Assembly: GCA_031763025.1 (NCBI GenBank)
Contig: JASSKH010000014.1
Coordinates: forward strand, 9,166,563 to 9,230,562
DNA: 64,000 bases
Source: Macrocystis pyrifera
Taxonomy: Eukaryota > Sar > Phaeophyceae > Laminariales > Laminariaceae
Direction of reading: 5' to 3'
The notes below the pieces were generated by a model. That model saw only the letters and a list, made by a program, of their open reading frames with translations, had not been told where the DNA came from and did not search any database. Both the position numbers and the translations under genes were made by a program. The number at the start of each line of letters is the position of its first letter. The first letter of the stretch is position 1. Of this stretch, positions 1,889 to 41,342 are shown one piece after another.

Positions 1889-1972
1889 GTGCTATCTATG
1901 TGGCGGTGGACTCTAATGTGTACCTCACCGGCGAGTCACATTCGAGCTACAACTCAGGGAAACGCGACGGAG
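1889..1972 (+). CDS. Pmp-repeat exon 1 (84 bp)
   Basis: The acceptor ends CCCGCAG and the donor is GACGGAG|GTAAGT. The exon is phase 1 at both ends and encodes one 28-residue repeat that opens Gly-Ala-Ile and closes YNSGKRDGG. It is the first exon visible in the window. Since it starts in phase 1, at least one exon must lie further upstream. Confidence 0.8.
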
Positions 1973-4900
1973 GTAAGTGACCACCCGGTACTATGTGTGC
2001 TTTTACTGTCCACTACCAGTAGACGCTTAGTATTGCGACACCCAGTATGCAACGACCAACGTAGTCGATATCAACGTTGATCGGATTGTCAAGGCACATC
2101 GTACCCACCGCTACTGTAAAAACAATCGATACCGAGCTCAGACTTCAAGCTCTATAGGCAGGTATGGTCTAGGTGCTGCAAGGCAGCGATGATTTCTCTT
2201 TAACAAAGCTATACCTGCAAGAACAACATTGGTAGTGGCTGGAGTAATGTTTTTGCGTTCCTTCAACTTCCGGGGAAACGTCTGCTGTTTGGGTCATCTG
2301 TTTTGGGGTCAATTGGCTACAGATACTAGTATTGCAAAGTGATATCTTGGACGATCTCTGAAGCTACCAAAAAATGGAAAGATATCGTATGGCTACCCCC
2401 ACAAATACATAGTTGTTCGAGACCATAATAATAGTAGTTCTACAGTTTCTGCGATCGTCAATGTCAAAATCAATCGAGAGGTGGATCTCGTCACTGCTGT
2501 TCTTGGTGTCTAGCCTGTAGACTTCAGCTACATTTCTGGTCTGGACAGTACAGGCATCAGTCATGGAAAAAAAACCTGTGGCCGGTGTTTTCTAGAAGAA
2601 AACCTACTGTCGCGAAAGTCCCAACATGTAACCTTCAAGCGTGCGATGAATGGGCAACATGTACGCAGCACTTGCCAATTGCCGGCATTCTGGGTGTGCG
2701 GCGTTGCTATAGGTTCTTGAACATATTTATGAGGTATTTACATCTGCACCCGCGGGCATGTAGTGGAGCTACTTCGGTACTTCGTAAGTACAGAAGGATG
2801 ATCGTTGCAATGAAAGCGATGCCAGTGCTGGTCTTGGATACTATCATCAGCTTCGCTCGCAGCTCCGTGTGGAGCACCGTGCCGACTACAGAAAACTCTG
2901 AGCTTTCGTAAGAGTTCCCGATGGGTTTTGTTCGATATCCATGTCAATTACCATTTGTGATCTAACCTCGCAAGGTTCTCCACAAGCTTTGTTCAAGAGT
3001 CATATGCATTTCAATCGTTTGTAAGAGCACATCGCACACGAGATGCTCCAGTACGAACCACAAGGGTAAAGCATATCAAGGATTGACAGAGACGGTCGCC
3101 GTCGAATGTCAGCTGACGCTCGATACGTGCATGAATGCTGCGAAACGCCCTGGCTGGGTTACCCAGAAATCATGCCAGAGAATGCAACCTGAAATCCGTG
3201 TCTAGGTGAAATGTCTCGGTAGGGTGGGTCAACGTGAAGGCGGACGTTCAGGTAAAGCGGGCCTTATACCTTGGGTGGAAGATCCTATGTTACAGCAAGG
3301 AGTTAGGGTGCTGATTCAACTCATTTAGGTGTCGCGGCGGTCAGTCACTCTTGATCACCTCCAGGTTCTTAAGCAGTTGTCGATGTTTCCAGTCTGACCA
3401 GATCGTAAACCCCAACCATGTGTTGTTTTAGTTATCGGTTTACTCGCAGGGGTGTGTATCACCTGCTACCAATCAGGTTACGAAAATGAATTACACTAAT
3501 GTAGGGCACGTCATAGTGTACGAGGTATCCAAGGCCAACTCCAACGTATAGTACACCCTATAACCGTTTACGCCTCCCGCCGGTAAATGCACCCGCACCT
3601 ATGGGTGGACGAACTACAGATGGTCAGGGTGTTTTCCTGAAAACACAATGACGAGGTAGTAGACAGTCGGGCACAAGCGCAAAAAAAACGTCTCGCTGGA
3701 TCGATAGTCCAAGCGTCCGTGGTAGAACAGCCTGCTCTGCGGTCGCCACAGGAGCGACGGGCTAACTTGGCACACGACACGTGTTCTATAGTGGAAGTGT
3801 GTTGAGCGTAAGCTTCATTTCTACAAAATCCGCACATGGTTAAAAAAACGAAATAATAGATGCTAACAATGTACGCTGCAAAGAGCGATCTTACACCCAT
3901 CAGTCGGTGTTTCAAAGTTGTGGAAGTGTCTCTCTCTACAGTGTACTTGATGCATAGTTGGTTGATTCCAGTTTCATCGGCGGTTACTGGTTTCCTCTTA
4001 CCCCAGTTTCCTCTTACAATGCACTGGACGGGTCAACTACAGTGCTGTACGTTCAATCGAAGTATAGCATCGGCAAGGCTTCCGGCCGCTCAGTAGATGC
4101 AAGGCATGCCCATCGCCTCGTTTTGTGCTGAGCTACCGAGCACTTTTTAGTTGATTTGTTTATCCCTCGTACAGTAGTGGTTCCGTTAACACTTCTAACA
4201 GACCCACATCAAAAATTCGATTTGAGTATTTCGTGTGACGAGGACATCCGATTTCCCGCACAATACAGTGCGCGCTGCACACTGTTAAGGTCTTAGTCCG
4301 TTGGGCTCAAGGTAAAAACCAATCGCCTACCCAATACTAGCCTTATAACACTCTCCTCCCCTGGAACGGACCGGATATACGGGTCGACGCGTGACACAAA
4401 CACACGGTTCCATTTTCTGGGGATCCAGAAGTATTTTTTCAGGTTCTTGACATGAGGAAATTAAGTTTTCTTTAAAAAGCGATTTCATGGTGGACGTGAG
4501 ATTCGAACTCACGACCAACGACCCATGTCCTGCCGACGACGCCACTTGTTAAGATCAAGGGTTGCGGGACACTTTGTATCCCTGGACAGGTCTGCCTTTT
4601 AAGTCGGTAAACATTGTACTCACATGTTTTGTTTTGCTTAGCTATAGAAGAAGAGCAGTTTTATTCCTTTCGTGCACGCGGAGACTGAGACCAAGCTCGT
4701 GCTCCTCTGGAAAACCCCTGGTTTTCCATCTAAGATACGCCTTCCAAGTACTACTAATACGTTCCCAGTGACTGGACCCAGGTAGTTACCGGGCTTTCAA
4801 TCTCATACAAGACAATATCTTAACAAAACAGTACACACGCGGCGATGTCCGGTTTCGCGGTCTTCGACTATTATTGTATTGTTGTTATTTTGCGGTTCTG

Positions 4901-6622
4901 ACGTGTTGGCAAAATGTCCGTGACCTCAATTCGTTTTCGAACAGGCCTGGACTTTCGGTTGCCCCGTATCCCCGCGTTTCCTTTCGCTGATCTCTGACCT
5001 CAAGCGGGACACCTTTGGTTTGTTAGAACGCTGCTTGACAAGGCCCTGTCCCCGTCAGAAGAGGTGCTTGGATGGCGCAAGGTGCCAAGCGCCTGCGGTG
5101 AACGCTTGTGACGATAGAGGAAAGAGGCGACAAAAACAGAACTATCGTTTCAGGCAACAGCCGGCCATGATCGAACTGAATGCGAACACTCCAGTAGCAT
5201 TGTTTTTTGTTTTTTTTGCAGCACGTCGTACTCGTATTGACATTGTGAGAAACAAAAATGTCGATTGATGCGACGCTGGCAGACCTATCAGCCGGCCGTG
5301 GTAGACAGAAGAAGTTGCTGGCGTTTGGGACCCGTTCCGACATTCATTGTTGGCAAGCTTTAACTAGTAAGAGCAGCAGGATTTCGCTCCCGTCGGCTCT
5401 AAGGTTTTTCAACCAAAACCTATCACACCAACTGTCGACGTGTGTCTTCTATCGTTCAATCAGTCTTATGATATGCCAGTCTGAACTCGTTGCTGGCGCG
5501 AATATATGTTGATCGCTCATGGCCGTACGTCAGTGTTCCACTGGCGACTGGACTGCGGTATGTATGTCGAATAGATTCGTTTGGTTGGTAACTTACTCCT
5601 TCTTTTTGTAGACTAGGCTCGGGCGTGAAAATCCTACAGAAACAAATTAAGATGGAATGTTTATTGTGTACCACACTGTCAATGTAAACCATACTCCTGA
5701 TTTGTACGGGGACATCGTATATCTAACGTATCTCTCACTCCGTGCTTCATTATTAACCTCTTCAAGCCAAAGCCATCATCAGGCATCTTCGTATGATCGG
5801 CTGACAGCATCGTCATGCCCTCTCCGTCCGTAGGTGCCATGTGCTATCGCGACTCCAAGATATACGTGGACGGGGACAATACATTTACAAACAACTCAGT
5901 GGTTAGGACGGGAGGTGAGACTCAGCGTATGTTGAGAGGATAGCCGGCGTAGGCGACGCGAACACGTACGGCCTGCCATGAGGAGGAAGGGTGTGCGGCA
6001 AGCAAGGCACTACCCCCGTATATTGTGGCTTGGCCAGCATCTGAATGGATTTAGCACAAGTAACGGCACGCTAGTTGATGCAATATAGTACATCGCTGCC
6101 CAAAGCAGTAGTGGGGTTCGATACGATGGATAAATCGTAGCGCTCCGTAGCCAATGCTAACAAAGGTGTCCTCAGCGAGCTTTTTACATGGAATATTTCC
6201 GTGTCTGCGCGGCGATACGCGCTCACACCCAGCCGTGAGCACAGGTAGCAAACTGTCAGAGGAAACAACATGAAAATTACCGTATATCCGCGGTTTAATA
6301 TGCGATACGTCCCCGCTGTCCTACTGGGTTCAGCATCAGCCAACGTCGGTGAGCTCTAGCACCACAGAATTCTGGCTCGGCAAATTTTCTTCAATGAAGG
6401 TTTTGCTTGGCGTCTTCGTGTATTTCGACTGCTGACGTTGTTTGAAATAAGTGACATACAACGCATGCTTGTCCTCCAAGTATCCTAAAACTTGCATTTC
6501 ACTAGCTGCAAGCACAGCCAGCCAGCCTTCTGCTATCATACATGGACGAGCCCTTGGCAGCTGAATGAAAACTGACTGACTACCCAAGGCGTAATAAGGC
6601 ACACAGTAGGCTATGTTGGATG

Positions 6623-6654
<32 letters not shown>

Positions 6655-9600
6655 TGCTTTTGCTAGCATTCGACGCTTGGTTGTCAAATGACAAGCCCCA
6701 AAAACGACTTGGACACGGCGATAGTCTCTGCGTGTCAGAATGTGGCTGCTTTGTGTTGGCCAAGATACTTTTGTGCGTCATCTTCTACCACCACCCCCTA
6801 GGTATGCGCTATGGGATCAAACGCAACAGGCGCACAAGGCAAAGTAAAAGTATCGGTGATCACCAGAGAACTGCTGTAGGGGGGAGCTCACGTTTTCGAT
6901 TTCGGGCCGGGGTGGCACACCTTAAGGCAACGCATCCTAGACTTGAGATAAGTGGCCGCTGTCACGGCAGCCGATTCCAATAATTTTACTAAAGTATTAC
7001 TGTAGTGTATGGTCGAAAAGAACACATTTTTTTACTGACGACCGAAACAGCAAAGGTGTATTCGATATTCGCAGAATCGGTCCGCCAGCATTATTCAAGG
7101 GTTCGGTTGTCTATTGTTCCATTTCTGTACGTAGGCCAGATTTTATGAAAGGGGCCATCTGATGTAGAAGTCCCGGGGTGACATCCGTATATAACTCCAC
7201 TTCTTCAGCCTCCTACACTAGAACAAGCTACAAATAAACTATCGTCGAGTTTGTCTCGGGCGTGCGGAGAACAGACAAGACATATGAATGTGCTCTCCAG
7301 GCCTCCATGCCATGCTATTGTTTGGACAACGCTCACTCCAGTGCTCGATATTTCTCCTGCAGGTGCCATCGTTGCGTACGGTAGTGAGGTTTACATAAGC
7401 GGCAGCGCCATGTTCACCCACAACTCGGCCGGAGTAAACGGAGGTGAAAACGTGCTCGTGGCTGCTATGCTTTTTTATGCGCCTCTGCTGCATTAGCGTC
7501 GTGCACCGTAAACGCATTGGGTTGTGAGAAGAACAGTGCACAAACCGTAAAATCACCTCGGTATATCAGAGTTGAGCCTCATGCCAGAGTGATACCTCCA
7601 TTTCTGCTACTTCTTCCTAGTTAGCAGGGAGGTACATTGCAGCGACACTATGTGGACTTCTCGGTATGATGGTGATCACTGTCACCCTGCCATCGTGTCA
7701 TCCATTCGTTCTATCATCCAATCTGAATCTAGCCGCAATGATGACAATAGGTTTGTCATGTACTTCAAGCCCGCAGTTTCTCGTTTTCTGGTCTGCGTGA
7801 GGAAAGGTTATGGTCAGCGCACTGAACCGCCGTTTGCGGTGGACTTCAATGGATCGTCTTGAATTGGTCGGCACCTGCGGTACTTAGAAGTATTTTTTTG
7901 TCCTTTATTTTAGCGTTTGGGTGTTTGACGGCCGGAACTAAAGTGCCCCTTATAGTGTGTTAGACCCCTTGACCGTGTGCAGAGATATTGCCATGCATGT
8001 GAGAACCTCACAATGCTCCCTAATCATGTAGGCACGTCTTCTTAAATAGTGGCATTGGATGCGAAATGCATGCTCAGGGAATCTCAGGGTGGTCGTTCAT
8101 CAGTAAGCGTAAGACTCGGGTCTCGAATGTGACTCCAACCAGTCGGCAGCGGTTAGTCTTTACCAGTGTGCGGCAGGCCTCAACGATTACTATGGATATA
8201 CACTGTATAGCGATAGGACGATCCTTGGACCGGAAACAGCAGTGTCCCCCTTTCTGGCTGCACAGTACGTACGCCGTGTGCGCAACGGTGTGTGCTGGTT
8301 AGCTGGTTATCGATTTGTTCCGTCGCATCTACATACAAATAAAACAGCTGCATCGGCTGAAAAAAAATGTAGGTTGGACGAAGGGCTCTAAATCCTCGAA
8401 ACTACTTGTTCGTTGAGACAAACGTCCTTGGACTCGGTGCGATAACGATTCTCGTTCTCTGACAATTTTGGATTCGTACAAGACGATTCTCGGTCGGAGA
8501 AACTACATATCATCAACGTTTATTGTACGCTACGTAGAAGAGGGCATGGTCCAGCAAACACATCCGACCACAGCGTGTGGAATACTGATCCACCAAAACA
8601 AATACAGGCGAATGCTCCAACAGGGGGCATAGAGAACAGCGGCAAAGGAGTACCGTACGTACATGCTAGTTGTTCAAAGGTCCTGATCGCGGTTTTATCT
8701 AGCACATACTTTGCCCAACGTGGATTATTTTTCGTGTCGATGCTATCGTGCCTCGTTCATCCATACGACCTTTCTTCCTTTGCATCGAACGTTGTGGGAA
8801 GGGGAAGCTTCGCCGACCCGAAAATGAATGAAATATTCAATACCACGGACGCCGCACCTTCGCTCAGCCGTCAAAGCGCCTCTTTTGGCGTCTACGAACG
8901 TTTCCTGCCCGTAGGCGCCGTGGCTTGGATTGGGTCAGATATATACTTCACCGGTGAAACTTACTTTGGAAACAACTCAGCCAGAAGCAGAGGAGGTAAG
9001 AAAGATTAGCGGGTTTTGCACTTCAATTCGATAGTCCGGATGTATTTAGCTGGTGGTTCTCGTCATCAAATAGAAGCTCAGATTTAAGGTTGTGTGTTAA
9101 GCCTCGCCGTGTGGTGGGTGGTTTCCAAAAAAACTATTACTATCTACTACTAACATTATTCCCGCCGACACGTTTTAGTATTAGTCAGAGACTGCACAAC
9201 CAACTGATGGGGCTTTGATATTTAGCCGACAGCGTTGAGCTGGCAGGCGATGTGGGGTAGATACTCTTTATATTTGCGGCGCCTGAATATGGGTAAAGCA
9301 CTTGCTGGACTACAGTCTAGAGTAGTGGTCCTCTCGACCAATTGTGCTTCAAGTCGCTTAGATATGCCCTCCATGGTGAACTGCCACGCTTACTCGTCGT
9401 CTCGACTGTCGCGAATCACGACATTCGCGCTACTTCCGTACCCTATTCAAGCAGACTTGGTAAAGTACTATAGTATACATGGTCTGAGCGCGTATCTGAC
9501 ATGATCGTTTACGAGACTGCTGCTTTACATTGTTCAGCGAGGTGAAGTGATAGTAGCGCCCACTCGAATCACCTGAATACACGAATAGGTTCACAGGAGG

Positions 9601-12600
9601 CAGAAGCACTGTCTAATAGTAGATAAACTAAAGGCGTAGTGAACGTATATGGGGTCTTCATGTTGTCATCGGACCTACAGTACCTTGAGCGTGTTTCCTT
9701 CAGACGTTGCATGTACACAGTGGTGCGCATCCCCCAGAGTTATACATGTTATTCTTGTCCGATACTTTCTGTGATGTTCCCCGATGATGCCATGTTCGAG
9801 AAGTCGCGTTAATAATATCGCACGGTGTGTGTGAAGGATGCGTCGGGTGTCGGGTATGAGTGAAAAATTATCACAGAGTTAGTGACCAAAGACCAAGCAG
9901 TCAGCTGTTGCTGGCTGCACCAGCAACCGAGTTGACATGTAGTGTAATGCATTGTCGACATCTAGTCTCCACGGATCCTCCTCCTCTTCAGATTCAGAAA
10001 CGCGCTTGATATCTGCCAGTTTGCCTTTTGATGTTCTGTCCATGGTCTCATTTACATAGGGTTATCGTGACCCCCGCTTGTATGGAGCGTGCCGAAACCA
10101 AGATATGCAGTAGTACAGTAGTTTCCTATCGGATCGTATTTTCCCCTTCCCGCCGCAAAGCAGCGCTAAACGTAGATGTGTGTGATTAACCGTGTACGTC
10201 ACACCACCTACCCGTAATATCACGCGCTCTTTGCAAGTTGCTTGGGGTGTCAGCCAGTATTATTTTTTACATTTTCTTCTGCCCGCAGGTGCCCTGTCTG
10301 CTGGCAACGCGAATGTACGTATGGCCGGCCATACATGGTTTGGCTATAACTCAGCTCAATTGTCCGGAGGTGAGAACGGTAGCGGGGCTATGCCATGCTA
10401 TAGACCTTGACGATTGTTGAGACGATTGCGGCCCTAAAAGGCCCGTTCTATGATTGGGAATTGCGTAGATTATTATGCTTCTTTGCTGTGTGGTAGTGAC
10501 ACCTCACGCGCTACACTGCCCCCAAATTCTTCTCCAGTGCTGTACAAGTTGAGGGGCATTTTCGTGCTGAGTGAGGTTCATGTCGTAGTACGAATTTCGA
10601 GTATACTGACGGTACAGTCACGGCACCACCTGTGGCGCTAGCCCTGCGGGGCCCACATTTCGCAAGTACATGGTATGAATAGTACTCGCAGTGTCCTGTA
10701 ATGTAGTACTCTGAACGTAAATGTAATAACCCCCGTGCGGGGTGGTATTGACCCGAGAGATGTCCGTTTTTGTCCCCGGGTTCTTTGGTTTCTACATATA
10801 TGGAAAGATTTATGATCCGAAGATGGGACTTATCACCGGTCGGTGCGGCCAGTGGGGTTGAAGTTTCCACATCTTGACGGATGGTATCGACCCGGGGGAA
10901 GCCCGTTTTCGTCTCTGGGTTGTTGGAGTTGTAGATGTACGGAAGGCTCTCTGGTCCAGATATAGGCCCGTATCGTCCCCGCGTGCGGCGGGACCTCGAA
11001 GTTGTGGCAAGGGGAGACGTTCACCGCGCGCTGGCTCCAAGCCGTACCCCTAGCAAATCATAAATCAGCAGTTCGGGTTGGGATGTCCACACCTTCCGGG
11101 GCGCTATCGGCCCAGGGGCTGTCCGTTTTCATCCTCGGGTTGTTGAAGTTGTGGATGAACGGAAGGATTCAAGATCCGGGGATAGAAAATTTTCATCGCG
11201 GGGTGAGACTGGACCTCGCCGTTGTCAGGTGAGGCAACTCTTGCCACGCGCTGACTCTAGGAGAGCCAGCCAGCCGTAAATCAGCCAATGGGGTTGGTGT
11301 TTCTACACCTTGCGGGGTGATATCGACGCGAGGGACGTCTGTTGTCGTCCGCGGTTTGTTGAAGTTGTAGATGTACGGAACAATCTATGATCCGGGGATG
11401 GAGATATATCATCTCCGGGTGCGATGGGACCTCGACGTTGTCTCGGGCCAACTCACCGCGCCCTGGCTCTATGAGCCCCAGCCAGCTCACAAATCAGCCA
11501 ATGGGGTGGGATTGCCACAACTTTCAGGGCGGTATCGACCCGGGGGAACTACGTTTTCGTCCCCGGGTTGTTGATTTTGTGGATGTATGGAAATGTTTAT
11601 TATCACGGTGTAGGAGCTGTATCGTCCTCGAGTGCGACGGGACCTCTCCGTTGCCCCAGTGCAAAATTATCGCCGCGCTCTGGCTTCATGAACCCCAATC
11701 AACAATAATTCAACAAGTAGGTTTGGGATTTCCACGACCTGGGGGATGTCCGTTTTCGTACCCAGTTTGTTGGAGATGGGAATTTACGGAAGGATGTGTT
11801 GCACGGGGATGGTATCTTGTTATCCCCGGGTGCGGCGGGACTTCGACTTTGTCCCGAGGAGAAACTGTCGAGGCGTACTGGCTCCTTAAGCCCAGCCAAA
11901 TCAGTGTTTAGCCGATGCTGGTGGAGTTTTCACACGTTCTGCGGCAGTATCGACCAGGGGGGATCCGTTTCAATGCCTTAATGGTCGAATGTTGGATGTA
12001 CGGTAAGTGTTTTGATCCGGGGATGGGACCGTTCCGCCCCAGGGTGAGACGGAACCCCGCCGTTGTACGGAAGGGAAAGTCTCTCTGCCCGCTGACTCCA
12101 TGAGCCTTAGCCATAAATCAGCCAGTGCGGGCAGGATTTCCACACTTTGCGGGGAGGTATCAACCCGGGGGGTGTCCATTTTCGTCCCCGGGTTGTTAAA
12201 ATTGCAAACTCATGGAGGGAATATGATCTGGGGATGATGCACTATCGTTCCCGGTTGCCGCTGACTCTATGAGCCTCAGCGAATCTTTGATCAGCCGATG
12301 GGCGTGGGGTTTCCACACCCTGCGGGGCGGTGTCCACCCGGCGAGTCGCCGTTTCAGTCCCCCGTTTGACGGAGTTGTAGATTACATAGGAATTTCTGAT
12401 CCGGGGTTGGGACCCGATCGTATCCGGGTTTTATGGAAGCTGGATGGCTCTATTCACTGCCAATGTTCTAGAAAGAGCGAGCGGCCCCTGGCATGGATTT
12501 GTCCCACCAATCGGCTTCCAGAATTGTATTCCAATATTATGAGTCGGCATCTAGGGTGGCTAGGTGGCTGTCAGAACGGCCACGAGATTTTGTAACGGCC

Positions 12601-15600
12601 ACGACTCGGCGCGGCATGGGACCCAGTGTTCTGATGACTGTGGCACCCAGCCTCTCTACCCGTGGGCAAGGCGGATCTGAAGCTCTTTGGATCGCGCTCC
12701 CCAATTGCAGACAAACAGGCAGAAGTACGAAATATCAGCATTGGTGTTATTAGATACCATCCGCTGTCATTCCAACCACTGTGTTTGTTAACAAACACTT
12801 GCATTTTTTATGTCCGTGTCGCGTTGTCACCATACTACTATTAATAACAGCATGTTTGCACACTTGGTGTTGGACAAAATTCTTTTTAATCGGGCGCTCA
12901 TTTGCCTGACGTCGTCGAGCGTCGTGGAGTTCTACAGCTGTGGGTAATGACATATTTTGACAATCTCACCTCAAAAGCTAACATCACAAATAGTGTGAAC
13001 AATGAAACAAAATAAAGTTCTACACCCCATAGGACCACTGAAAAGCAAAAGACCTAAAGTTGAAGATAACCTAACACTGACACCCCTACCCTACCCTTGG
13101 TCAGCCATCTACAGTAAGCACAATAACAACACCAATCGTAAAAAAGGATGTATATTGTGTGAGAAACGAGTGCTCGTCAACGGTACTACACGCGGAACCG
13201 GACCTGCGCAAGTCACCGCCTGTTGCCGAAAACATACATTACGCATTTTCCCGAGAGCGCCGCAACGTCCAAACCCCATATTTACCCTATTGACCATCGG
13301 GTTCCAAATATGTTTGTTATTGTTCTAAAAATACTCCTGGCTCTTACTTGTTGCGGCTTCATATCCTCATTTTACCCGATCATATCTTAAGCATTGCTCC
13401 TATCGGCTCCTTGGCCTCATTACTATGCTATGGAAACTCGCGATGCTCGTTGTGCAATACCCGCAGGTGCCATGCAGGGTCATACTGCTCCAATCTACAT
13501 CGAAGGCAACACCACTTTCATCCACAACGTAGCCGGCGAGGACGGAGGTGAGTAAGACCACTCACCACTCATTTGTCGCCACTCACGGCCTTGCATCACC
13601 ACTAGCATTCACTATTGATCGTAAATGGTACACATAGCTCTCCAGCAGGGGCATGAATTATCAATAGCAATATGACACGTACTTCAAGGTACCTTCCTCT
13701 GGGCCAGACGAAGGCGTTGGGAAGCTGTCAGCAGAACTTTGCGATACTTTCTCCCCGGTCTGTGGACTCTCGCCGTACGAAGTGTACGTATTTTATGGTT
13801 AGCGCGTGCGAGTTGTGATCGGGTTGTCAATATTGTTTGTATTTATTAATGAACGTCCTGATATGTTATGCATGGCATGTTTATGGACGTCCCCTCCAGA
13901 GGTATTGAAGCTTATGTCTTAGAACTGCGGACTATAGGGTAGATTCCCGCCATTAGTTGGTACAGTTGAAACGCGAACAACAACACAACGTGGCGTAGTC
14001 TCCCAAATGCTCCTGGTTGATTTTAGTTGATGTTCCCACGACAATCGGAACTATTGGTGTGACGACTGCCTGCATGACGGTAATGCCTTGATGCCACAGC
14101 AGCCACACAAGTTTATTTAGTCGTTGGCCTTTTTTTTTCTAGCTGAAACATGCTATGTTCTTCTTCCACAATGCTTGGAACCTGTCTCGTTACCAGCACA
14201 AACAACCCTTCCGCGATAAGTTGATGTCGGAACATGAGCATTGACAGGAGTATCACTTCATGCTTGGCCGTCCCCAGGTGCCCTGAACTACTACACTGGA
14301 GAGGGAGTCGACATCGTCGGTACCAGCACGTTCTATCGCAACTCAGCCCGTTGGCGTGGAGGTGGGCAACACCACCATACATAAATAGACACAAGAACGG
14401 TGGGAAAGCGGAGCGTCACAGACGCGTTGAATTGATCAAAGCAGTAACTGTATCAAGCTACTGCGTTGGCGGTTGATCATTTTTTTCTGTGTTCCAGCAA
14501 CAGGTCTTGCGATCGTGCTCACTATTTATCGATGCGCGTCAGCGCAGAAACCTTGTGTGGTGGTTGGGTGGGTTTGGGTGGGTGGGTGTGGGTTAGCGGG
14601 TAAGCGGGGTGCTGGATGCGTTGGTTGGTGCGTAGGCTGGTTGGCCCAAACACCACGAGCACCACCCACCACCAACATTTCATTGTTTTCGATGCGTGCC
14701 TGCGCCAAAACCTTGTATAGTGGATGAGTATGCGGATGGGGGTGGGAGAAGTGTGCCGGTAATACTACTGTATGTCTTCGTAAGCACACCACCAAGTAAA
14801 ACACAAGCGCATACTAATAGTTAACCACAACAACCCTAATAGTTAACCACAACAACACAAAGTGGAACAAGGTCAGCAACAACACACATAAACAAACACG
14901 ACAACAGGCGGAGGGGCGGATACAAATTATCTACAACAGACAACAACAACAACAACAACATTCACCGCAGTAACAACAACAAAACCAACAAGAACAAAGG
15001 TCATCAGCCACAAAAAGTTAACAACACAACATTGAATACAAAACAAAAAATCAAACCAATAATAGAGGGGATGCTGTTTGAATAATGTCTTCTTCAGGTG
15101 TTATTATGTGCCTGGTACCAGGTTTTGGTTTTCCACTTCCACGAAAAAAAAAAATGCTTAATATTAATTGAAAAAGCCGAAATGGTGGGGGAGGGGGGGG
15201 GCTGCCCTGGCCCGTCCCCCCCCCTGCATGCGTACGCCTTACTTACCCCTGTATAAAATGCCCGGAGGGAAGAGAGAAAAAGGGGGGGGGGGGCCGCCTC
15301 GTCCTTTTTCGCTTGCTTACGCCTCCCCCCCCTCCACACAAACGAAACGCGGTCGACCTCCTTACCGGTCGCGCTCCGCTAGTGGAACGCCTCCCGTCAC
15401 GAGACCGCGGTCCCTTTCCCCCTTCGTCCGGATACGTGTAGGGACTGTTTGGGTTCCCAAGCGGTCCTTACTATACCTGGCGGAGTAGCACCTATAGTAT
15501 TTAACCCCATCTAGTCCCTTGTCCTGGCTGTCTCTCAACCCCCCCCCCCCCCCCCCCCCCCTTGCTCCGACACCTCTGTTACCCATACCGGGTCTTCCAT

Positions 15601-18600: not shown

Positions 18601-21600
18601 CCCCAGCCATCGTGGCTAAACCTCGCACTAAGCTTGCCGCCTTCACCGATTTCCCCGACACGTTCCCCAACAACCCCTGTGCAACCTCCCAACGCTTCTG
18701 ATCTTCGACGCGCCGGCCGGATATCGCACCTGTTTCTGACAAAATCGCCAACCCCGGAGTCGTACCCCCCCTTTCCAAGCGCTCAACCCGAACCCCCCGC
18801 CGTCGCCGTCGCAGTCGCCCCAGAACTCGTGACGGTTGCTCGCTTGGTTGACTCCCCTGTGCCGCGGAGCCCGTGTCCTCATTTCTTCGCCGGCTCGTCG
18901 TTCCCCTCCTCTCCTTCTCTGTCCCCCGTCCTCCTCCCCCACCCTCCCCCGTCCCCCTCTCTCTTACGCTTCCCCAACCCGCCTCCGTCCCTCGACAGGT
19001 ACGCACCATTCGGGGTTTTGTAGCTGCCTTCGTGCCTGTACCTGCACGGCAGCCCCTTCTTAGGCTCGTGGAGGCACGCTTGCAACCCGGACGAGAAATT
19101 CGATGCTCCCCCTTCCCCCCACTGCGGCCTGGTGCTGAGTATTGAACTGATGCCGTCCCCCCACCCGGAGCTGCTTCGTGCTGCGGCTGCCGGTGCAACC
19201 TCCGTGCTCCCCTCTCCGACGGACTTGTCTCCTTCCCCGCCCACCCCCACTGTCCTTCGGGCGCCCCCATCTGCCGCTGTAGCGACCCCGACACGTCTAT
19301 CTCCCACTTGCTTACATCCCCGACCACCCCAGGCCTGACTGCTGCTGCTGCTGTAACTGCATGCTTGGCCGCTGTTGCTGCTGTCGCGGGTTCGGTACTC
19401 CCCCCGCCCCAACCTATCCCCCCCCCTCCCCCCCCCCCGCATTTTCCATGCCGCATTGCTCCGATGCCCACCCTTGCTGCTGCTGCTGCTGCTGCGGCGG
19501 GCCTCCCGGGCCCCAGGGTGCCTGCGAGGGCCCGTTAAAGGTCGTGAGCTGATGGCTAGCGCGCCTCCCCCCCCCCCGCCTCCTGCTGATCCGAACTCCC
19601 TCCACCCGACCATGGGGGGCCCTGAAACTCGTTTCCGGGTAAATTGGTCGTTGCGCCGCGATGGGGCATGTTGCATGGAGTTGGACTGCTCGCGGTTCCC
19701 ATACGAGCCGTTCCCACGCCCCCTACCCTGCGACGTGTAACCCCCCCTACCCCCCCTACCCGACCGCATGTGAGCTCCTTGGTGTACTGTCTGGCTACCC
19801 TCAAAGTGCACGTTCCTACTCGTACCCAGGCTACTCAGGGTATTTGCTCGCACTCTACCGTCGTCGGGGTTGCCCGATGCTCCTGCTGAAGACTGATCGT
19901 CCTCCGCGTTACCGGCCGCCCGTTCCCTTGGGTCGACCCCCGCCTTGGCCCCGGGCTCCCACAAGATTCTCGTGCTCCTCGTCCTGCTGCTGTATCCCGG
20001 TATGAGGTTCCCCCATCCTGCTCGTCGACCCTCCCAACGCACAGGCTCAACGACTGCTGACCACTTGACGACTCATTGACGTGCCTTGCCCTGTAAAAAA
20101 ACAACTAGAAGACTCCCTGACGTCCCTTGCCCGGTTCTATTCAGATATTGCAGGGCCTTGCCCGTGAGCTATATATCCTGGATACACGCTGCACCGACGA
20201 CCCCGCTTCACACCGCTCTACCGCTGCTTGCTCGTATCTGAATTGCGTTGGTCTTTCTACATCAATCATCCAGAACTTCTACTTTTTTTCATTCTTACCC
20301 CCGTACTAAACATCCCTTGTTATTAAATGGCACACCCTCCGAAACCGTCTCATTCCTTCACTGGTTTATCTTTTCTACCCGTTACCCCCCAAACACCAGG
20401 TTGCCCCTACGACAACCTTCCTCGCCAGGTACGTACTGTAGTAGCGAACGAAACCCCGCTGCTGCTGTACACCAGTAATAACTATCAACAGTAGTATTAG
20501 CAGTAGACTGCCACCTGGTACGAGGTGTTTTGAGTTATCTATACATTATTTTCTATACATTATTATGCCAAATTGCAATGTCGACGTCGCTAATCAGGTG
20601 AGATATCAACCATTACAGTGCCCGCTTCCCTGGTTTAAGGTCGTTATATCCTCGTGTCAAAACCATACATACATCGTGTTCTGATACAGGCGTCCTCCTC
20701 CGGCCCGTAAGCGACGAACACAGGAACAGTACCACCTACAGAGTTATGCAAACTCAATCCTTCGAGTCCTAGGTTCAATTTGATGTGGCTGGCAGACCCT
20801 GCGTCTTTGTGTTTGGGGGATACATTTGTTACTGGAGAACTCCAGGAGTTCTCGAAGGGAAACATCACTCGGTCTGTAGTGCTTCTGTGCTCTCTGGTAC
20901 GTGTGGTACATGCTCGAATTCCCAGTTACGGGCGGAACCCTCCTTTTTGTTCAGAGCACCTACCACGACAAAGTTCGACGAACTCAACACGGCTTTTGAC
21001 GGGAGCAGAGGAAGATAGAGGTACAAGCCAGGGACCTCCATCGATCCCGTCTGTTTCGAAATCGATCGTGATTTCATCTTGCGCAACGTACAAACGTCAC
21101 TTCACACATTCAGTCACCTACTCACTTAGACCTGAAGCAAATCAACTCCGAACAATATTGGCTCCCTCTGCCCGAAATTGCCTCGGAGTCTCCTAGCATC
21201 GCAGATGTGCCCCCGCACAGGCGGCCCGTTAGTTTACAGACAGATGCACGAGCAAGCGCGTCTGGCTCCACATTACATAGCGATGGGAATGAGGAGCGTC
21301 ACTAGCGCCTTGAACCACTCAAAACTCCTATTGCGGGGGTCTATAGTTAACAGGACCTATGGCATACATAAAAGCCTATATATTTAGGTATTTTTACTAA
21401 CAATATTTGGTCCTGTTAACTACGGACCCCCGTAATAAGTGCATTAAGCGTCCGGGTTGGCGTTGCTTTTACGTTTACCGTGTTCAAGCAACTATAACGT
21501 ATCATACGTGGTAAATGTATACCCTAGGTATGATGCACGTGCTCAATGCCGTCAGTGGATGATTTCCAAAGCATTCAAGTATTGATATATGCCAATACAT

Positions 21601-24600
21601 TGTGGTACTCATGGACGAAGAGTCCAGGGGTGCCATAAGAGCGCCCCCGGGGTTGGCAAACGCCTTAAGGTTCTGCTGAAAAAAAGAGATGATAACATCA
21701 CGAACATGTACAAAGGGGTTAGGGGGAAATTATAATAGAAGAGCACAAACCAGGCGACATCACTTTTTGCGTTGTTTATTTAACCGGGTAACTACTCTTC
21801 GCGACGAGGTGCCGCGTTAATTGCTGGCGAATCAACACAGGGGTAGTTGCCCTGGGTGCGCGACTCCGGCTGTTCGGGGCAGAGGAGCCCCATTGATCCC
21901 AAAGTATTGTTCACAAATTCAAGTGACAGTGGAATGTTACAACAGTACCAGTAGATAAAATGACGTACGTACCCTCTTGAACAGTTTAATTTAGGGTAGC
22001 CTGGGCCTCCTCTTGAACAGTTTATTTAGGGTAGTGTGGACCGTTAAATAGCTGACAAGCAATTAGCTGGTGCGTGTCCAATATTGCTGCAGCAGTACCA
22101 GCAGTTAAAACGGCGTGCGAACCCTCTCAAACATTTTTTCAAAGGCAGCATGAGCCTCCTCTTGAGTAGCTTAGGTTAAGGTTGTATGAACCGTAAAATG
22201 TCTGACAGGCAATTAGCTGGTGCGCGTCCAATGTTGTAACAATAGTAGACGACTGCAGATGTTCGCCTAGATGGTTTGGGCAAACGGTTTGGGCAAACGG
22301 TCGAGTTGCGTCTTGTACACATTCTAACGTTTGCTAACGAACCCACAACTAATAGTAAATGCGTATCCGGACTTGCACAGAACATGAGAAATGAGCTGGA
22401 TATGGCTGTTGGACGTCACGTTCATTTTGGAATAACATTTGCTTGAGACAGTAAAAAGAGAGTGTCGAAGGATGGCACAGTTTGCTGTCGTTTAATCGCT
22501 GCCATGGCATGACGATGTTGATAGCTGACAGAAAAATAAGGTCGACAACGTCCCTCTCCCGCGGTCAATGCTATCGAACTAATAGACCAAGTGCTCCAAA
22601 CTTCAACTAAACATATCTCTCTCCCCCCCCTATATATTATATACAGGTTGGGTTGGCGTCGGTTGGCAACGACACTGTAAGACATGCCGCTCACTATGTG
22701 AGCTAAACAACCAGGGTATCGTTTGCTTGTTTTTGGTTCTGATGGCCGGTCACAGGTGGTGGTCGAGTTAGATCATCTGTGCGAGGTGAAGAACCTTTCT
22801 CCCGCACGAGGGGAATGATTGTATCACGTACCCGGTATTTTTATGGTAACGCACCCAACAGGCAGTTACATAGTGCTCCCATTGTTGTCTCTAGAAATGG
22901 CCACACCGGAAATGAAATTCACTCATTGAAGCTGTCATCTATGTGCAAGTCCGCTCACAATCGGTTCTAAGTAGGATGCAGCTCACCCTTCAGGCCACTT
23001 GTCAGACACCTCACGGCGCTTCGCGCTTGGTGCAAGCACTGCCTGCCTGGTCGGTTAAAACCCAACGTGCTCTGTCCCGGCATTATAGGGTGTATGCTCG
23101 CACGACTACGATCATGCATGATATCGAGTACACCTCCTGCCCCCGCACACCACGGTTTGGATTGTTTTTATAATAGAAGAACAACCGGGAAGGTCCTTTA
23201 TTATTGTCTATTATCCCCCGCACCGATAAAAGGCATGAAAGTCCGTATCGGAAAGAGGCAAGGACAGACAGTTTTGTTGGATTTGATAAACCCGGTAGAG
23301 ATGACGTGCGTTTACGACGTTCACAAGATCCTTCCATCCCACGACTGGTCGTCAATACCCTACAATCATGTATTGGCCTTGCCGGCATGCACACAAAAAT
23401 GGGTAAAGAACACAGGACATTGCTGGCAGCCTCTCGTACATTACTCCTTTTAATCATGATCGTTATTTCTACTTTTTTAGCGACACCATAAAACGAAAGG
23501 GAGCGGTTTAAGCGCATTCTGCTCGACATGGCCTTCGCTGAGCTTACCTAACATGCTTACCTCCTGTAGGTTGGGGTATGGTCTGATAGTCTGATAATCT
23601 GATATTCGGATATTCGGACGGCCTTACTCGTCATCGCTGGCGTTGAATACCGGTTCGAAAACGTGTGCCAGCCTAAAATGCCTTTATGAGTTCGCGGGCC
23701 AGAGGTAGGAGCAGTACGACTTGCTTCGCTTCACCAGGCATGGTTATGTAACGAATGGGATGATTATGCTTACGAATCTGTGTGGGCTTTCATGGGTCAC
23801 CTACAGGTGCATTGCGTATCTTCTCGGCAGAACTCCGCATCACAGGGACCACTTCGTTTTTGCACAACACGGGCTACGATGGAGGTGAGAGAGGACCGAG
23901 ATGAGATGTGCGCAACAGCTACGATACAGTAGCTCCTTGGGCATGAATACACCCACGCGATTCTATAGATTGATCATATCCAACCAAGAGGTCTGTGGTA
24001 GGGTGTCCTAAGACCGTTGTATCAGCGTATAGTAGCTAAATCGACCTTTGGGGTTAGAATGTTTTCTCGATCACATCACGACGACAAGAACGCGTTCAAC
24101 TTTACTCGGCCAGCAGGGAGGCGCTGTTTCCATCACCCGAATTAAGTTCTGGCAGTACTGAACGGTGCCGAAGATAAGTGAAGAGAGCGTGGCATGAGGC
24201 ATTGTCCAGGACTGCAATATTTGAATAGGGTTGGGGTTAAGAAGATGAGGACAACGTGCAAGGCCTGACATTCATGATATATGACATGAGCAAAGCAGGC
24301 CGTTCGCTGAGGTGACGAAGGTGATCAGTTATACTTGATGGCTTTTTCCTTTTCCGAGCTATATTTGTTCTCATTTCGTCCGCGCCGACAAAACACATCC
24401 CTATTGTCTCCTACAATGACTGTAGCAAGTCAGCTCGAGTTAAATACTGTTGTCGATGTGGCGAGTACGAGAGGTGTATAATGTAATCACCGTTGTGTTG
24501 AAATCTTCAGGTTGGACAGTGTCCTAGGTTTGTCGAGGAAAATACACTCACAGAAAGACCAATGAGGATGTCACAACTGCATTATTTCCTCTGTTTTATT

Positions 24601-27600
24601 TTGAAGATTAGCGAGTTGGGTATTTATTGAGTGCTCACTCCTGTATGTTGGTTGCATTGTTTTTCAAAGTCGCTACAATTTAATAGAAATGAGCTTCGGG
24701 GGATACAACGTGGACCACAATGAGAAGTGTTGTCAATAAAGTTCTCGACCCTCGTGCGCCTAAAGGTTGCCTTCTTCGAAACTATTCAAACTGAAATCGC
24801 TGTCTCTAAACGGTTGTTTGTGTCATTCGCGGCTACTTATTACGGGGGTACATAGTTAATAGGACCTATGGTATACATAAAAACCTATATATTTATCTAT
24901 TTTTACTAACAAAATTTGGTTCCTGGACCCCCGTAATAGTTCAATCAAAAGACTACTCAGGCACTGAGTGTAACCAACCATGCATATGATGCGTACGTCC
25001 CACGCGTGTTTTATCTGATACGTCAACAATACCCCCGGACGGATTGATAGGAATTACTGTACAGCATTCATCATTTCCTTTGAATAACTTACGCCTTCTC
25101 ACAGGCGGCGTTACTGCCCACCAAACGGCGATCGTCATCGACGGCAACGCTAACTTCGTCAACAACTCAGCAGATCATGACGGGGGTGAGCGAAAAGGAA
25201 ATGCTTACGGTAACGCGCATGCATGAGGAGCATGGTAAAATATACAGTACTGAAACAATAGTGTGCTGACTCAAGGTCACACCGAATCGTTAGCCATTGT
25301 CAACTGGCCTCCACGGTCCCCGGCAGCTGACACATGCAGTATTCATTTCAATGTACTGCAGTCTTAACCTCCCCTCGGCCACGATCTATACTACCGCAAA
25401 AACATATATATACGGTATACGTATGATATTCATGGTGATCACATTTCGATCGAGGGTTTAATTCACGATAGCTCATACCACGTACCGGTGTTAGACTACA
25501 TCACCCACGGTTTTGCGTTTACTAATTTTTTTTCATTCAGCAAACAATCATGTTTGAAGTATTACGAGCCGCTACCTTCTGAACGTGCTCCGCCTTTGTG
25601 ACTGTGTTCTATGAGTGCCGCGAGAAGTCGGTTTAAATGTGATTTATGCCTCCCCGATTAAGTTTTATCATTCATTAGTTTTCACGTTCGCGGCACACGA
25701 TATGTGGCCAGGCTTGCCTGGTCATCGGTGTGTTAAAGTAGATGTATGTACGTTTCCCCTTGACACATGAGTATCTCAATGCTGTGCATGCCCATTGCGG
25801 CTGTTTCCATTTTGGATATGTATACACAACACCCTATAGTTGTGTTTGTCGCCGGTGTTTTCGCTTCAAGCGCTGACTACAGTACTGTAATCGGAGGCAC
25901 GCAGACGGAATGTCGACCATGGGTTTGACAGATAATAGCTTCCTACGGCATTACTCGGGCTGTCATAGGATGTGAATCATATATAAGCCAAGTAAAAGTG
26001 CAGGGCTTGTGGTGTAACGCTGGAGATACGGGATCATTAGCAATCCCCGGATGCCGACGTCGATGTTCAGGAGATTTACCGTACTTTCGTATCCAGGGTT
26101 CTTGATGCCGCTTGTCTTCCTGCTGGTTAATCGCCTAAGTTAGGATAGCACTCCATTTCACGTTGCATCATAGTACAACACCGGTGATCTGGGTTCGGGT
26201 TAGGATATTTTGCTTCGGGTTGTCTAACGGACAGAGATGAACGTGATAGGTATGTTTTAACTCACTTTATACTCATCCGAGAGAGTACACAACCAGAGCT
26301 GCCCCTGGAAGTGTGTTGCCTCCGAAATCATAACGCCGTGTATTCTGAATGATCCGATGCATGCCTGTCGCCGACAACGACTTGTTTCTACATCTCCTTG
26401 TACCACCCGTGTTTGTTGTATTTTCTGCCCGTCACTGCAATGTGCCGTCATATCTAGAGTCGCTGACATCCCCGTTGGCCTTACACCACACTGGTGCAAA
26501 GGTACAATACTATGCAGGCTAAATACAGAACAACCACCGAACGGGCGTTCGCGTTGTACTGGAATCGGCATGCTGCCGGAGAAGTTCATAAGTAGTCGAC
26601 GTGCGGATAAAGCCGGACTGACGTCGAGAAATCAACGCTACCAAGGAAGAAGTCCGGCGTTTGTTGTGGCGTGAAAGTGTTGATTTGCTTTACAGGCACT
26701 TGAGGGTATATGGTGTGTATTGGGGGTAGAAATTAGTTAATTCACACTACACTAAGGTAACTTAAGCCCACAAGTATATATTGTTTGAGCACGTTTGTAT
26801 CGTCGGGTAGTGACTGATTTTAGTATACTACTCTACCGTAGAATGTGTTTTCAGGGGTGATTATCAGCATATCATTAGTTTATGTATTAACATGCACGTC
26901 GCTTCCGTTCGCTGGGAATTATTTAAACTACTAGTACGACGATCCACGTGTGGTTTCCGGCCGTAGTTGATGCACGAATGGCCATGCTCTCGGCACGGCG
27001 ATGGAGATGCGCCACACACCGGCAGGAGTTTATGGTACAAATACGGTTTACAAGATTGTGATATACAATTGCCCCTGATCACGTCCCAGTGGTCGGTGAC
27101 AAGCGCGAGAACAATACTGCAAGTCAAAGTGGTCGAGGTAGGGTGGTACGGGGCTGGTCCTGATGCATGTGCTAGAGAAGATTACTCAAAGGCTAAACTC
27201 AGTAGATCATGCTTAAAATGGCTATCACGGTAGAGTCCTCAGGTTGACAACCATTGTATTACGAGAAAACGTGATGGTAAGTATTGGAAATAGGTACTGA
27301 CAGTTTCTCGGAGCGCTTCTGACTACGCCAATATACCCTCTGCGGTGTGCAGTTCGTGGTTATCGCCGTCATGGTGCGTTCGTTACTATTTGTGATTCCC
27401 TGCAGGTGTTGGATGTGGTTGAAAGAAGCGTGAGGGCTTGGAATGTCACGTGCTTACCATTCGTACTTCAATATGTCCATGCGCATGCATGATCTGTACG
27501 TTTGGCAATCATTGAATGAAGCGATCCCTAAAGTCGTCGGCCGATATCATTTTCATACATCGTTCGTAGCAATAATCATTTATGTCATTTTGCTGTAACA

Positions 27601-30600
27601 CTAACCATGTCCCCCACTCTAATACGCAGGGGCCCTGAACATTCTCGGCGCCAACGCCACCATCATGGGGACGATGGAGTTTTCAGGGAATACCGCCCTC
27701 AACGGAGGTATGGCCCGATTCAAGCAGTAAACCACGTTCATTAATTTCACTCGATCAGTTCGCAGGAACCTGCTGGCTTGTGCGGAGGCACGACTGAAAA
27801 GGGGGTGCGTTGAACTGGACATACTTGGCATCACATCGCGTTTGTGGGAAACATTTACGTTGTGGCTTCATGTTACTGAATAATGAAAATGTCTTCATAC
27901 GTTCACTCGCATGCAGCTGTTATTACGGGGGACCAAAGTAAATAGGACCAAATATTGTCAGTAAAAATAGGTAAATATATACCAGTAAGGTTTTGTGTGT
28001 TCCGTAGATCCTGTTTATTATGTTCCCCTGTAATAGAACGGGACATGAAGGTGAGTCATCAGCGAAATATAAGTCTTGTTTCGCGACTGCGCAGGGTCTA
28101 GTTGGGGATTTGAAGCCTTGCTACTATAGACACAGGTGTCATAACATGTGTTCTTACTTTGAAACTTACGATGTTTCACGCACGTCGAATCGGCTCACTT
28201 AATTTGGTCGCGTTACATCGAATACAGGGTATCCTCTAGGTATCCCCCCACACACACACATCACTGTTCCAATCGTCCGAGTGGTACTGAAAATTCCTTG
28301 CAATTTAGGCAGCCTAGCGGTTAGGCGACTTATACACTTGTGCTCAAATAATACGGAATGAGAACACTCACTATAGGGCTGGCGTTTCAATGAACCAAAC
28401 CAATCGCCTTCGCCTCTTCTCACGCTCCTCAGGTGGTATTTTTTCCGTACTATGCCCAAACTTCGAGGTCCTGGGGATGACATCCTTCGTTCGGAATACC
28501 GTACATTTTTACGGAGGGGCTATATCGCTATGGGACCCGCAACATGTTAAAATCGTCGGCGCTACATTCGAAAAAAATAAAGGTGCATCCGGTGGAGCTG
28601 TGGCTATTACGTCCACAGAAGGCACAGCAGGGGGGCTTGAGAGTTGTCGATTCGACAGCAACGATGCGACAAACGGAGGGGCTTTGTACTTGAGCACTGG
28701 CCCCGCAGACGACACAGACCAGACTGAGAATGTTAGGTTCGTGAAAGATTCGGTCTTCCTTCACAACGCTGCTGGTGAGAATTCGTTGAGATGTACTCAA
28801 TACTTGTATGTTGGGGATGGTCTAACTTAGGGCTAGGATTAGATCAATGCCTTTGGACTGTACGGGTTTCTTGCAGACGTTTTCCACCCGTTGGTGAAGT
28901 AATTCAACTACCACCAGCCGCTGCGTCCAAAGCTAGCGTCAGACGTCAAGAGTACGTGCCTGCTTCCATGATAAATCATTGCGAATAGCGCAGCGAAGAC
29001 GAGGTAAATATCTGCCTACTACTGTGGGGACACGCTAAAAAGGTACCCTTGTCCTGGGAAGGGAGCTTGTCTGAGGCACACGGCAAGAACAGTATGTAGT
29101 ACATAACGCCGCCTTTGACTCGATTCGAATCGTACCCTTGTGCTCCGAATGCTCTTTTGTCTTGTTTGGTCCATTGTTTTACAGTTGAATCGGGTGGAGG
29201 GCTCTACAACGCCGGCGCAATAGCAGTCAGCGGCACACTGTTTAAGGAAAACACAGCCGGGAAAAGCGGCTTAGCAATCCAGGACGAGGGATCTTACGTC
29301 GTGCTGGGGAACGTGACCTTCGAGGAAAACATGTTCAGATGCCCTGTCGACCAGTACGCCGACGCCCATCATGTGAGCGCATTCCTGACTTGCCTTCCTC
29401 TTGTTCGACACCTGGTACCTGGTACAATACAAATACCACATTTCCCTAAACAAGCCGCAGCAGATATAAGACAGAGACTTTATATATTGGCCGCTGTTTA
29501 TTATACGGTAAACTAACTTTGACAATGTTTCCTACGGTCAGTACCGTCTATCGTGGAGGGGTACCTTGAGACCGAAATGATCTCTGACCAACGGGGCTCC
29601 TTATTAAGTGTGAGGATGCGATAATTCCTGGGGCTGCTGTTACTTTGTAAAATTCTTTCGACGTCAGGTTTTGAGCGAATTGGAGAGATCTCCCTATGAT
29701 CGGAGTCTTAAACATCGTAGTGTAGGTACTCCTCCACCTTGCACCGCGGCACGGATCCTCAGCGGGGGATGGTGACAAAGCGGCCAAGCAACGCAGATTT
29801 TGCTTTTACCGCGCAAATGTAAATTGGTATAACCAGTGTGGGACTAGAAAAAAACAGGATTTATTTGGTGTTACGTGGTGCTACCGCAAGGGTTGAAGTG
29901 TGTTACGGTAAACCACTGTGTACCTAGCACTAGGTAGCTTCGAGAGCAAAGCAATCGGCTTCATTTCAGCTACGCGTTATCTATCATGTCCTTTGCATGC
30001 GGACTGCACCCACACACATCGCGTGCTTGAAAACTTTGGCCCTCTCTCCGTCTCGTTCGATCTTCCATCAGACGTCTGACGATGACGGCGTCTGCCGCTT
30101 TGAAGTGGTCTGCCACCAATGCTCGGAGGGGTGCGAGGTTAACGACGAGGTTGCTAAGGTGATAGCCGATACAATTCCCGTTTGCGAGGAAATCCCTGAT
30201 GGCGTTTCGCGATCGTCGGCGACTACGCTTGCAACGTTCGACCTTTTAGGGGGCTACTACCGCGTTTCCGACAAAAGTCGAGTTATCCGGGAGTGCTACG
30301 TGTCGGATGCTTGCACTGGGGGTACCGACCATCTCAATTACTGCGCCATGGGCTACACAGGACCTTGTAAGTAACTGCAGGGGTATCGGGTTGGGGGTAC
30401 TGGCTACTTCTGTTATTCTTCAGTGGTTCATAGCGGGAAAAGGGCTGCGCCAGCAGACCAACACCTGCATAACTGAGCAGCTTCGGCTCTACCTTTGTAC
30501 GCACCGCTCCGAGATCGAAAGCACTATTGCTGCCAGATATGTCACTAATACCACGCCAATGGATACTCTTACCTTGCAGTGTCAGCCTCGCACTACTGTA

Positions 30601-41233: not shown

Positions 41234-41342
41234 TATTACGGGGGTCCATAGTTAATAGGACCTATGGTATACATAAAAACCTATATATTTACCTATTTTT
41301 ACTAACAAAATTTGGTCCCGTTAACTATGGACCCCCGTAATA
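41234..41342. mobile_element. MITE copy 4 (~109 bp), best preserved
   Basis: TATTACGGGGGTCC at one end and GGACCCCCGTAATA at the other; the outer ~20 bp pair almost perfectly. It sits between two SINE-like copies. Confidence 0.85.

Follow-up and report, generated by a model that had tools for sequence, protein, structure and literature searches.

Within a 64,000-nucleotide stretch of the genome of the kelp Macrocystis pyrifera (assembly GCA_031763025.1, contig JASSKH010000014.1, positions 9,166,563 to 9,230,562 of the forward strand; hereafter the window), ten consecutive small exons each encode a single repeat of the Pmp type, and all of them begin and end in phase 1. They probably belong to the gene of a large membrane protein, and the window contains much of this gene. 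We propose that this gene encodes a rod of Pmp-type repeats, that the exon array grew by duplication of a founder exon and that its exons are mainly constitutively spliced, and we assign a probability of roughly 0.6 to this explanation as a whole. A preliminary description of the same DNA had reported ten exons of 78, 81 or 84 bp with one repeat apiece and had suggested that they may be a diversifying surface-protein system. The exons themselves were borne out on the + strand between positions 1889 and 27707. In the following they are called cassette exons, E1 to E10:

E1, 1889-1972, + strand: 84 bp, phase 1-1, one Pmp-type repeat without the FxxN motif (leave-one-out E 0.0015)
E2, 5834-5914, + strand: 81 bp, phase 1-1, one repeat, found by pattern scan and profile
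E3, 7363-7443, + strand: 81 bp, phase 1-1, one repeat, found by pattern scan and profile
E4, 8915-8995, + strand: 81 bp, phase 1-1, one repeat, found by pattern scan and profile
E5, 10289-10369, + strand: 81 bp, phase 1-1, one repeat, found by pattern scan and profile
E6, 13467-13547, + strand: 81 bp, phase 1-1, one repeat, found by pattern scan and profile
E7, 14278-14361, + strand: 84 bp, phase 1-1, one repeat, found by pattern scan and profile
E8, 23807-23884, + strand: 78 bp, phase 1-1, one repeat, found by pattern scan and profile
E9, 25105-25185, + strand: 81 bp, phase 1-1, one repeat, found by pattern scan and profile
E10, 27630-27707, + strand: 78 bp, phase 1-1, one repeat, the weakest in the leave-one-out test (E 0.026)

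The ten exons were hand-picked from a scan for open stretches bounded by AG and GT, with phase 1 at both ends, a Gly-small-hydrophobic start and a Gly end; the other rows of the scan were longer versions of these exons, pieces of the downstream exon E11 or lone low-scoring matches. All ten have ordinary GT-AG splice sites. Their 3' ends read GGAG in nine cases and GGGG in E9, and all start with GT, GC or GG. Every cassette intron is placed in the second Gly codon of a Gly-Gly turn. The nine introns between E1 and E10 are as long as first described, ranging from 730 to 9445 bp with a median of 1471 bp. Tandem order, a common phase and a common structural border thus characterize all ten cassette exons; they do not characterize the six repeats of exons E11 and E12 further downstream.

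The array is not due to chance. A strict pattern (length 72-90, open, Gly-small-hydrophobic start, Gly end and a [FILVMY]xxN motif) matched nine times on the + strand of the window and never on the - strand, and E1 lacks only the [FILVMY]xxN part. One-strand scans of 100 first-order Markov copies of the window gave 0.04 matches per copy on average and never more than one. Eleven successive phase-1 boundaries have a probability of 5.6e-6 under uniform phases, a figure that assumes independence and would not hold under duplication. To avoid circularity, the protein profile was rebuilt ten times from nine exons and run against the six-frame translation of the window. Each time the training exons took the first nine ranks and the omitted exon the tenth, with E-values from 3.6e-8 to 0.026; E10 was marginal (0.026, vs 0.03 for a segment of E11). 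As isolated repeats, the left-out exons scored 12.7-34.8 bits, and shuffled repeats reached at most 10.1 bits (of 300 made, 267 received a score from hmmsearch). When a DNA profile was built from E1-E10, it recovered these exons, its own training set, at E <= 6.3e-8. No decayed eleventh copy rose above noise in this DNA search, in which the next matches were exon 11 (E 0.42), exon 12 (E 1.6) and then scattered positions, and the same profile recognised no repeat exon in positions 1-1888. The first exon of the gene was not found within the window; it may sit unrecognised in 1-1888 or lie outside the window, and therefore ten cassette exons may be a minimum.

Because the exons are symmetric, the preliminary description had expected any subset to be removable without a frame change, and this expectation held in full. 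All 1024 subsets of E1-E10, joined in order to E11, are open and in frame (1024/1024). Moreover, the codon split by the intron encodes Gly in 100 of the 100 ordered exon pairs and in all ten exon-to-E11 junctions. The neutrality hence exceeds that given by phase alone, as the junction residue is also unchanged. Within the repeat, the border Gly pair, a central Gly and an Asn are invariant, one Ala and one Phe are nearly so, and the most variable columns (entropy of at least 2 bits) are 4-7, 9, 14, 16-18, 20-21 and 25-27. Since the introns split the Gly-Gly turn between repeats, the gain, loss or skipping of an exon would alter the rod by exactly one repeat and leave the core untouched.

The repeat is of the Pmp family, as had been proposed, and not a leucine-rich repeat (LRR) or tetratricopeptide repeat (TPR): joined repeats match Pfam Chlam_PMP (PF02415; E 2.4e-13, 49.3 bits, cut-off 20.6) and NCBIfam POMP_repeat (TIGR01376; E 2.7e-18, 64.8 bits, cut-off 15), and E11 alone clears the Chlam_PMP cut-off with 25.8 bits. 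By their family, the repeats are predicted to form right-handed beta-helix coils. The best match among solved structures was weak (E 0.0013), to chain U2 of PDB 7w5z, a putative transmembrane protein of Tetrahymena with 3634 residues, and E11 stayed below the cut-off of Pfam Beta_helix (E 0.11). Chlamydial Pmp proteins are bacterial, intronless autotransporters with a C-terminal barrel. The repeat family is common to both by profile, but the kelp gene has a polytopic membrane domain after the repeats instead. No C-terminal autotransporter barrel was found in it; there are hydrophobic segments, and no autotransporter family is among the Pfam matches with E <= 1.

The span described earlier ended at 27707, and the gene continues beyond it as follows:

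E11, 28433-28774, + strand: 342 bp, phase 1-1, beginning at the G|G point of the cassettes, with four repeats uninterrupted by introns (Chlam_PMP E 9.3e-6)
E12, 29185-29372, + strand: phase 1-0, two more repeats, fused (divided by eye)
E13, 30072-30366, + strand: phase 0-1, a Cys-rich juxtamembrane segment (DUF7630 below cut-off, E 0.0027)
E14, 30653-30933, + strand: phase 1-0, a Cys motif and the first two hydrophobic segments
E15 region, 36052-37123, + strand: up to the stop codon, a polytopic C-terminal membrane domain

Past 27707 the repeats are therefore no longer one per exon. The claim of one repeat per exon stands for E1-E10, and it does not extend to the next six repeats of the gene, which are fused in two exons. 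These fused repeats argue against a strict rule; a related result in homologous genes had been named beforehand as one that would refute the interpretation. The repeats contain six N-x-S/T sites, of which the cassettes hold five. At its threshold, a hydropathy scan placed two segments in E14, three in the first part of E15 and one in its second part, and none in E1-E13, so that all of them come after the repeats. Pfam gave weak matches below cut-off for the membrane part (best DUF6338, E 0.00042), and a PDB search with it returned cytidylyltransferase entries only (E 0.02). Neither E15 (in IMG/VR, phages and GTDB genomes) nor E11 (in IMG/VR and GTDB genomes) had a confirmed match in these viral, phage and prokaryote collections, where relatives are not expected. 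Judged from the order of its domains, the protein may form a rod at the cell surface, carried by a membrane base, and act there in adhesion or recognition.

The array appears to be old. Mean identity among the cassette exons is approximately 35% for protein and 49% for DNA, and adjacent exons are no more alike than non-adjacent ones (34.9% vs 35.1% for protein, 48.9% vs 49.2% for DNA). The closest pair reaches 59% DNA identity. At codon positions 1, 2 and 3, identity amounts to 0.476, 0.559 and 0.412, the usual pattern of constraint. The 120-bp intron flanks up- and downstream of the exons have a mean score of 14.6 vs 14.3 for random pairs, and their largest score of 21 equals the random 99th percentile (21). 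Across the introns (15 stretches compared), all ten matches at E <= 0.01 belong to one hairpin element of approximately 110 bp in introns 7, 8 and 10. Within the gene, no recent exon duplication or exchange was detected: there are no close exon pairs and, except for this dispersed element, no intron homology. It is the low exon identity, the missing neighbour effect and introns that share only a dispersed repeat that point to a high age, and by its sequence this is an old array and not one of ongoing shuffling.

Arrays with one repeat per exon are already known for LRRs, and the examples from ROCO genes, Tetrahymena and human NLRP3 are not beta-helices. For NB-ARC-TPR genes, exon shuffling was reportedly described by Zambounis et al. 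in 2012. NLRP3 is a cytosolic receptor. Its exons of 171 bp carry two LRRs each, compared to one Pmp-type repeat in a kelp cassette; in NLRP3 and other NLR genes the exon border always lies at the same structural point, and modular skipping is known for NLRP3, with that of exon 5 demonstrated (PMC6642158). The preliminary likening to brown-algal LRR-ROCO genes was apt, as these candidate recognition proteins are likewise encoded by tandem arrays of exons with one repeat each, fixed length and constant phase. However, ROCO exons are 72 bp long and in phase 2 and encode an LRR fold in a protein with a GTPase, whereas the kelp gene has exons of 78, 81 or 84 bp in phase 1 that encode a Pmp-type repeat of a membrane protein. 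ROCO genes are reported to have splice variants and four sites with predicted positive selection (Teng et al. 2024, PMC11378527); the kelp gene is known here from sequence alone. In Tetrahymena, thousands of genes contain tandem 90-bp phase-2 LRR exons, equal and in the same phase, for which exon shuffling was proposed; in young members, the exons are near-identical and the introns of characteristic length (PMC6564038). By contrast, the kelp locus is a single gene with diverged exons and very unequal introns. In a kelp, expression is reported for a transcript that carries the annotation of a Pmp family member, with differences between cadmium and iodine treatments (PMC10573767); by this annotation it has the repeat family in common with the present gene, with which it need not be identical. 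No beta-helix gene with one repeat per exon was among the literature matches listed, subscription papers being mostly outside that search.

How the array arose is best approached by comparing cassette and fused repeats. The mean score between cassette repeats is 37.4 (standard deviation 12.0), and each of the six fused repeats scores between 9.3 and 27.0 against the cassettes. On the cassette profile, the best fused repeat reaches 10.0 bits, not above the shuffled repeats (10.1). In addition, the ten Gly-Gly junctions that bear an intron all precede the four intronless ones, an order expected once in 1001 cases if random (the count omits the E11-E12 border, where the intron lies at a different point). 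Growth from a single symmetric founder exon fits both the contrast in scores and the contiguous intron-bearing junctions, and the array most likely grew in this way. Alternatively, an older repeat without introns might have acquired them in independent insertions, each at a recurring proto-splice site GGAG|G in the turn. In favour of this, nine of the ten cassette exons have GGAG at their end and the other GGGG; moreover, an unoccupied GGAGG is present at two of E11's three fused junctions, and the intron flanks are unrelated to each other. Against it, the first ten of 14 junctions are the occupied ones, and cassettes resemble each other more than they resemble fused repeats. Insertion into a homogeneous array does not predict this resemblance, although structural capping could also explain it. 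We regard independent insertion as possible but unlikely.

With respect to present use, cells might include differing subsets of E1-E10, giving an alternatively spliced receptor whose ectodomain comes in many lengths and with many faces, comparable to the isoforms of LRR-ROCO in Ectocarpus. Every subset is in frame with Gly at its junctions, brown-algal ROCO genes of the same design have splice variants with up to nine transcripts (PMC11378527), and human NLRP3 skips one modular LRR exon (PMC6642158). Frame neutrality, however, follows from exon symmetry and does not itself demonstrate skipping; all ten exons have ordinary splice sites, and the hairpin repeat of three introns has a further copy beyond the gene, at 41234-41342, and is hence no dedicated splicing selector. 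We consider alternative splicing on this scale a tentative and somewhat doubtful proposal. Ongoing germline or somatic shuffling of exons, as proposed for ROCO and NB-ARC-TPR genes, would be allowed by symmetric exons and long introns, and the many repeats in some of these introns could serve recombination. Yet it sits poorly with exon pairs of at most 59% DNA identity without neighbour effect, with introns that share nothing but the hairpin element and with a third codon position that is the most variable; according to the ROCO paper itself, there are no reports of somatic recombinant ROCO loci (PMC11378527). Shuffling is quite improbable, and of the preliminary interpretation the architecture stood, whereas active diversification is not supported, as neither recent duplication nor shuffling is visible at the locus and codon position 2 is the least variable. 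Equally improbable is a decaying or misassembled copy without function. The altered frame at the run of C in E15 and a transposable-element-like open reading frame (ORF) inside one intron would suit such a copy, but no stop interrupts any of the ten small exons or E11-E14, and all have GT-AG sites, which is unexpected after long decay.

Several observations weigh against a founder-derived, mainly constitutively spliced rod gene. Independent insertion of introns at GGAG|G is possible, as discussed above. The fused repeats are diverse even mutually (mean score 14.3) and one of them, the first repeat of E12 (27.0), lies within one standard deviation of the cassette mean, so the split into a cassette and a fused subfamily is suggestive only. 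Regarding age, the best local match between exons, E3 with E6, is 72% over 43 bp (E 0.002), and identical residues use the same codon in 196 of 374 cases, compared to 142.7 expected and with none of 2000 resamplings as high. This excess is largely adjacent to splice sites (last Gly codon 36 vs 12.1, first Ala codon 21 vs 9.9), but a Ser codon away from them contributes as well (15 vs 4.1 expected). Because synonymous sharing above expectation lies partly outside splice-adjacent codons, some trace of descent may remain. The splice sites are predicted from the DNA sequence by itself. An AlphaFold2 model of E11 alone had a pLDDT (predicted local distance difference test) of 33.9, too low to inform on the fold; since this model is unusable and the Beta_helix and PDB matches are weak, the beta-helix assignment rests on family membership. 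Finally, the open frame of E15 shifts at a run of eight C (36761-36768), which may be an assembly error or a real change or defect, and E15 was for this reason read as two separate pieces.

The hairpin element is an imperfect palindrome of approximately 100-117 bp with ends like TATTACGGGGG...CCCCCGTAATA, and it looks like a miniature inverted-repeat transposable element (MITE). Copies lie at 21329-21437, 24838-24938 and 27920-28036 (introns 7, 8 and 10) and, beyond the gene, at 41234-41342; those in the introns fold as hairpins at -26 to -55 kcal/mol. A role as splicing selector or a trace of exon duplication was rejected for this element, given the fourth copy outside the gene and its unrelated distances to exons. 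Among the introns, the longest stands out:

Intron 7, 14362-23806, + strand: 9445 bp, with repeats and a reverse-transcriptase-like ORF on the minus strand

This minus-strand ORF (17497-18306) resembles a reverse transcriptase, with a weak RVT_1 match below cut-off (E 0.19); further long minus-strand ORFs in the same intron (18257-19534 and 18879-20072) had no Pfam match. Intron 5 contains a diverged tandem repeat with a unit of approximately 216 bp (10733-12410), and large tandem arrays, their units 95-471 bp long, occupy 53913-55380 and 61368-63641 of the window. Scans for tRNA genes and Rfam families gave no matches.

Taken together, the protein would have a rod of Pmp-type repeats as its outer part and, after it, a Cys-rich collar and a polytopic membrane domain. 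The ten symmetric 1-1 exons would encode the distal rod, with at least ten repeats, and the two fused exons the membrane-proximal repeats. A founder exon may have been duplicated repeatedly via its flanking introns, long enough ago for introns and most synonymous sites to have diverged. The exons would now be mainly constitutively spliced, with some skipping possible, and modularity would work over evolutionary time, altering the number of coils and their variable faces by whole repeats. Even if the exons are always included, this is a clean case of a repeat protein lengthened unit by unit with the intron always at the turn. Interchangeable exons could also let a surface protein change its length and shape by splicing or recombination. 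Potentially, though we think it unlikely, the gene product is polytopic, sits at the cell surface and has a recognition rod that changes by single coils, as at least ten frame-neutral exons are included in different combinations, above a constant, fused membrane-proximal part. The beta-helix would then be a third repeat fold recruited, in one lineage, to the diversification design of LRR and TPR cassette receptors. If the cassettes are combinatorial in this brown alga, its lineage would apply a one-unit-per-exon plan to no fewer than three unrelated repeat folds (LRR, TPR and beta-helix), and three folds on one plan would argue for a general mechanism that varies surface and immune-like proteins.

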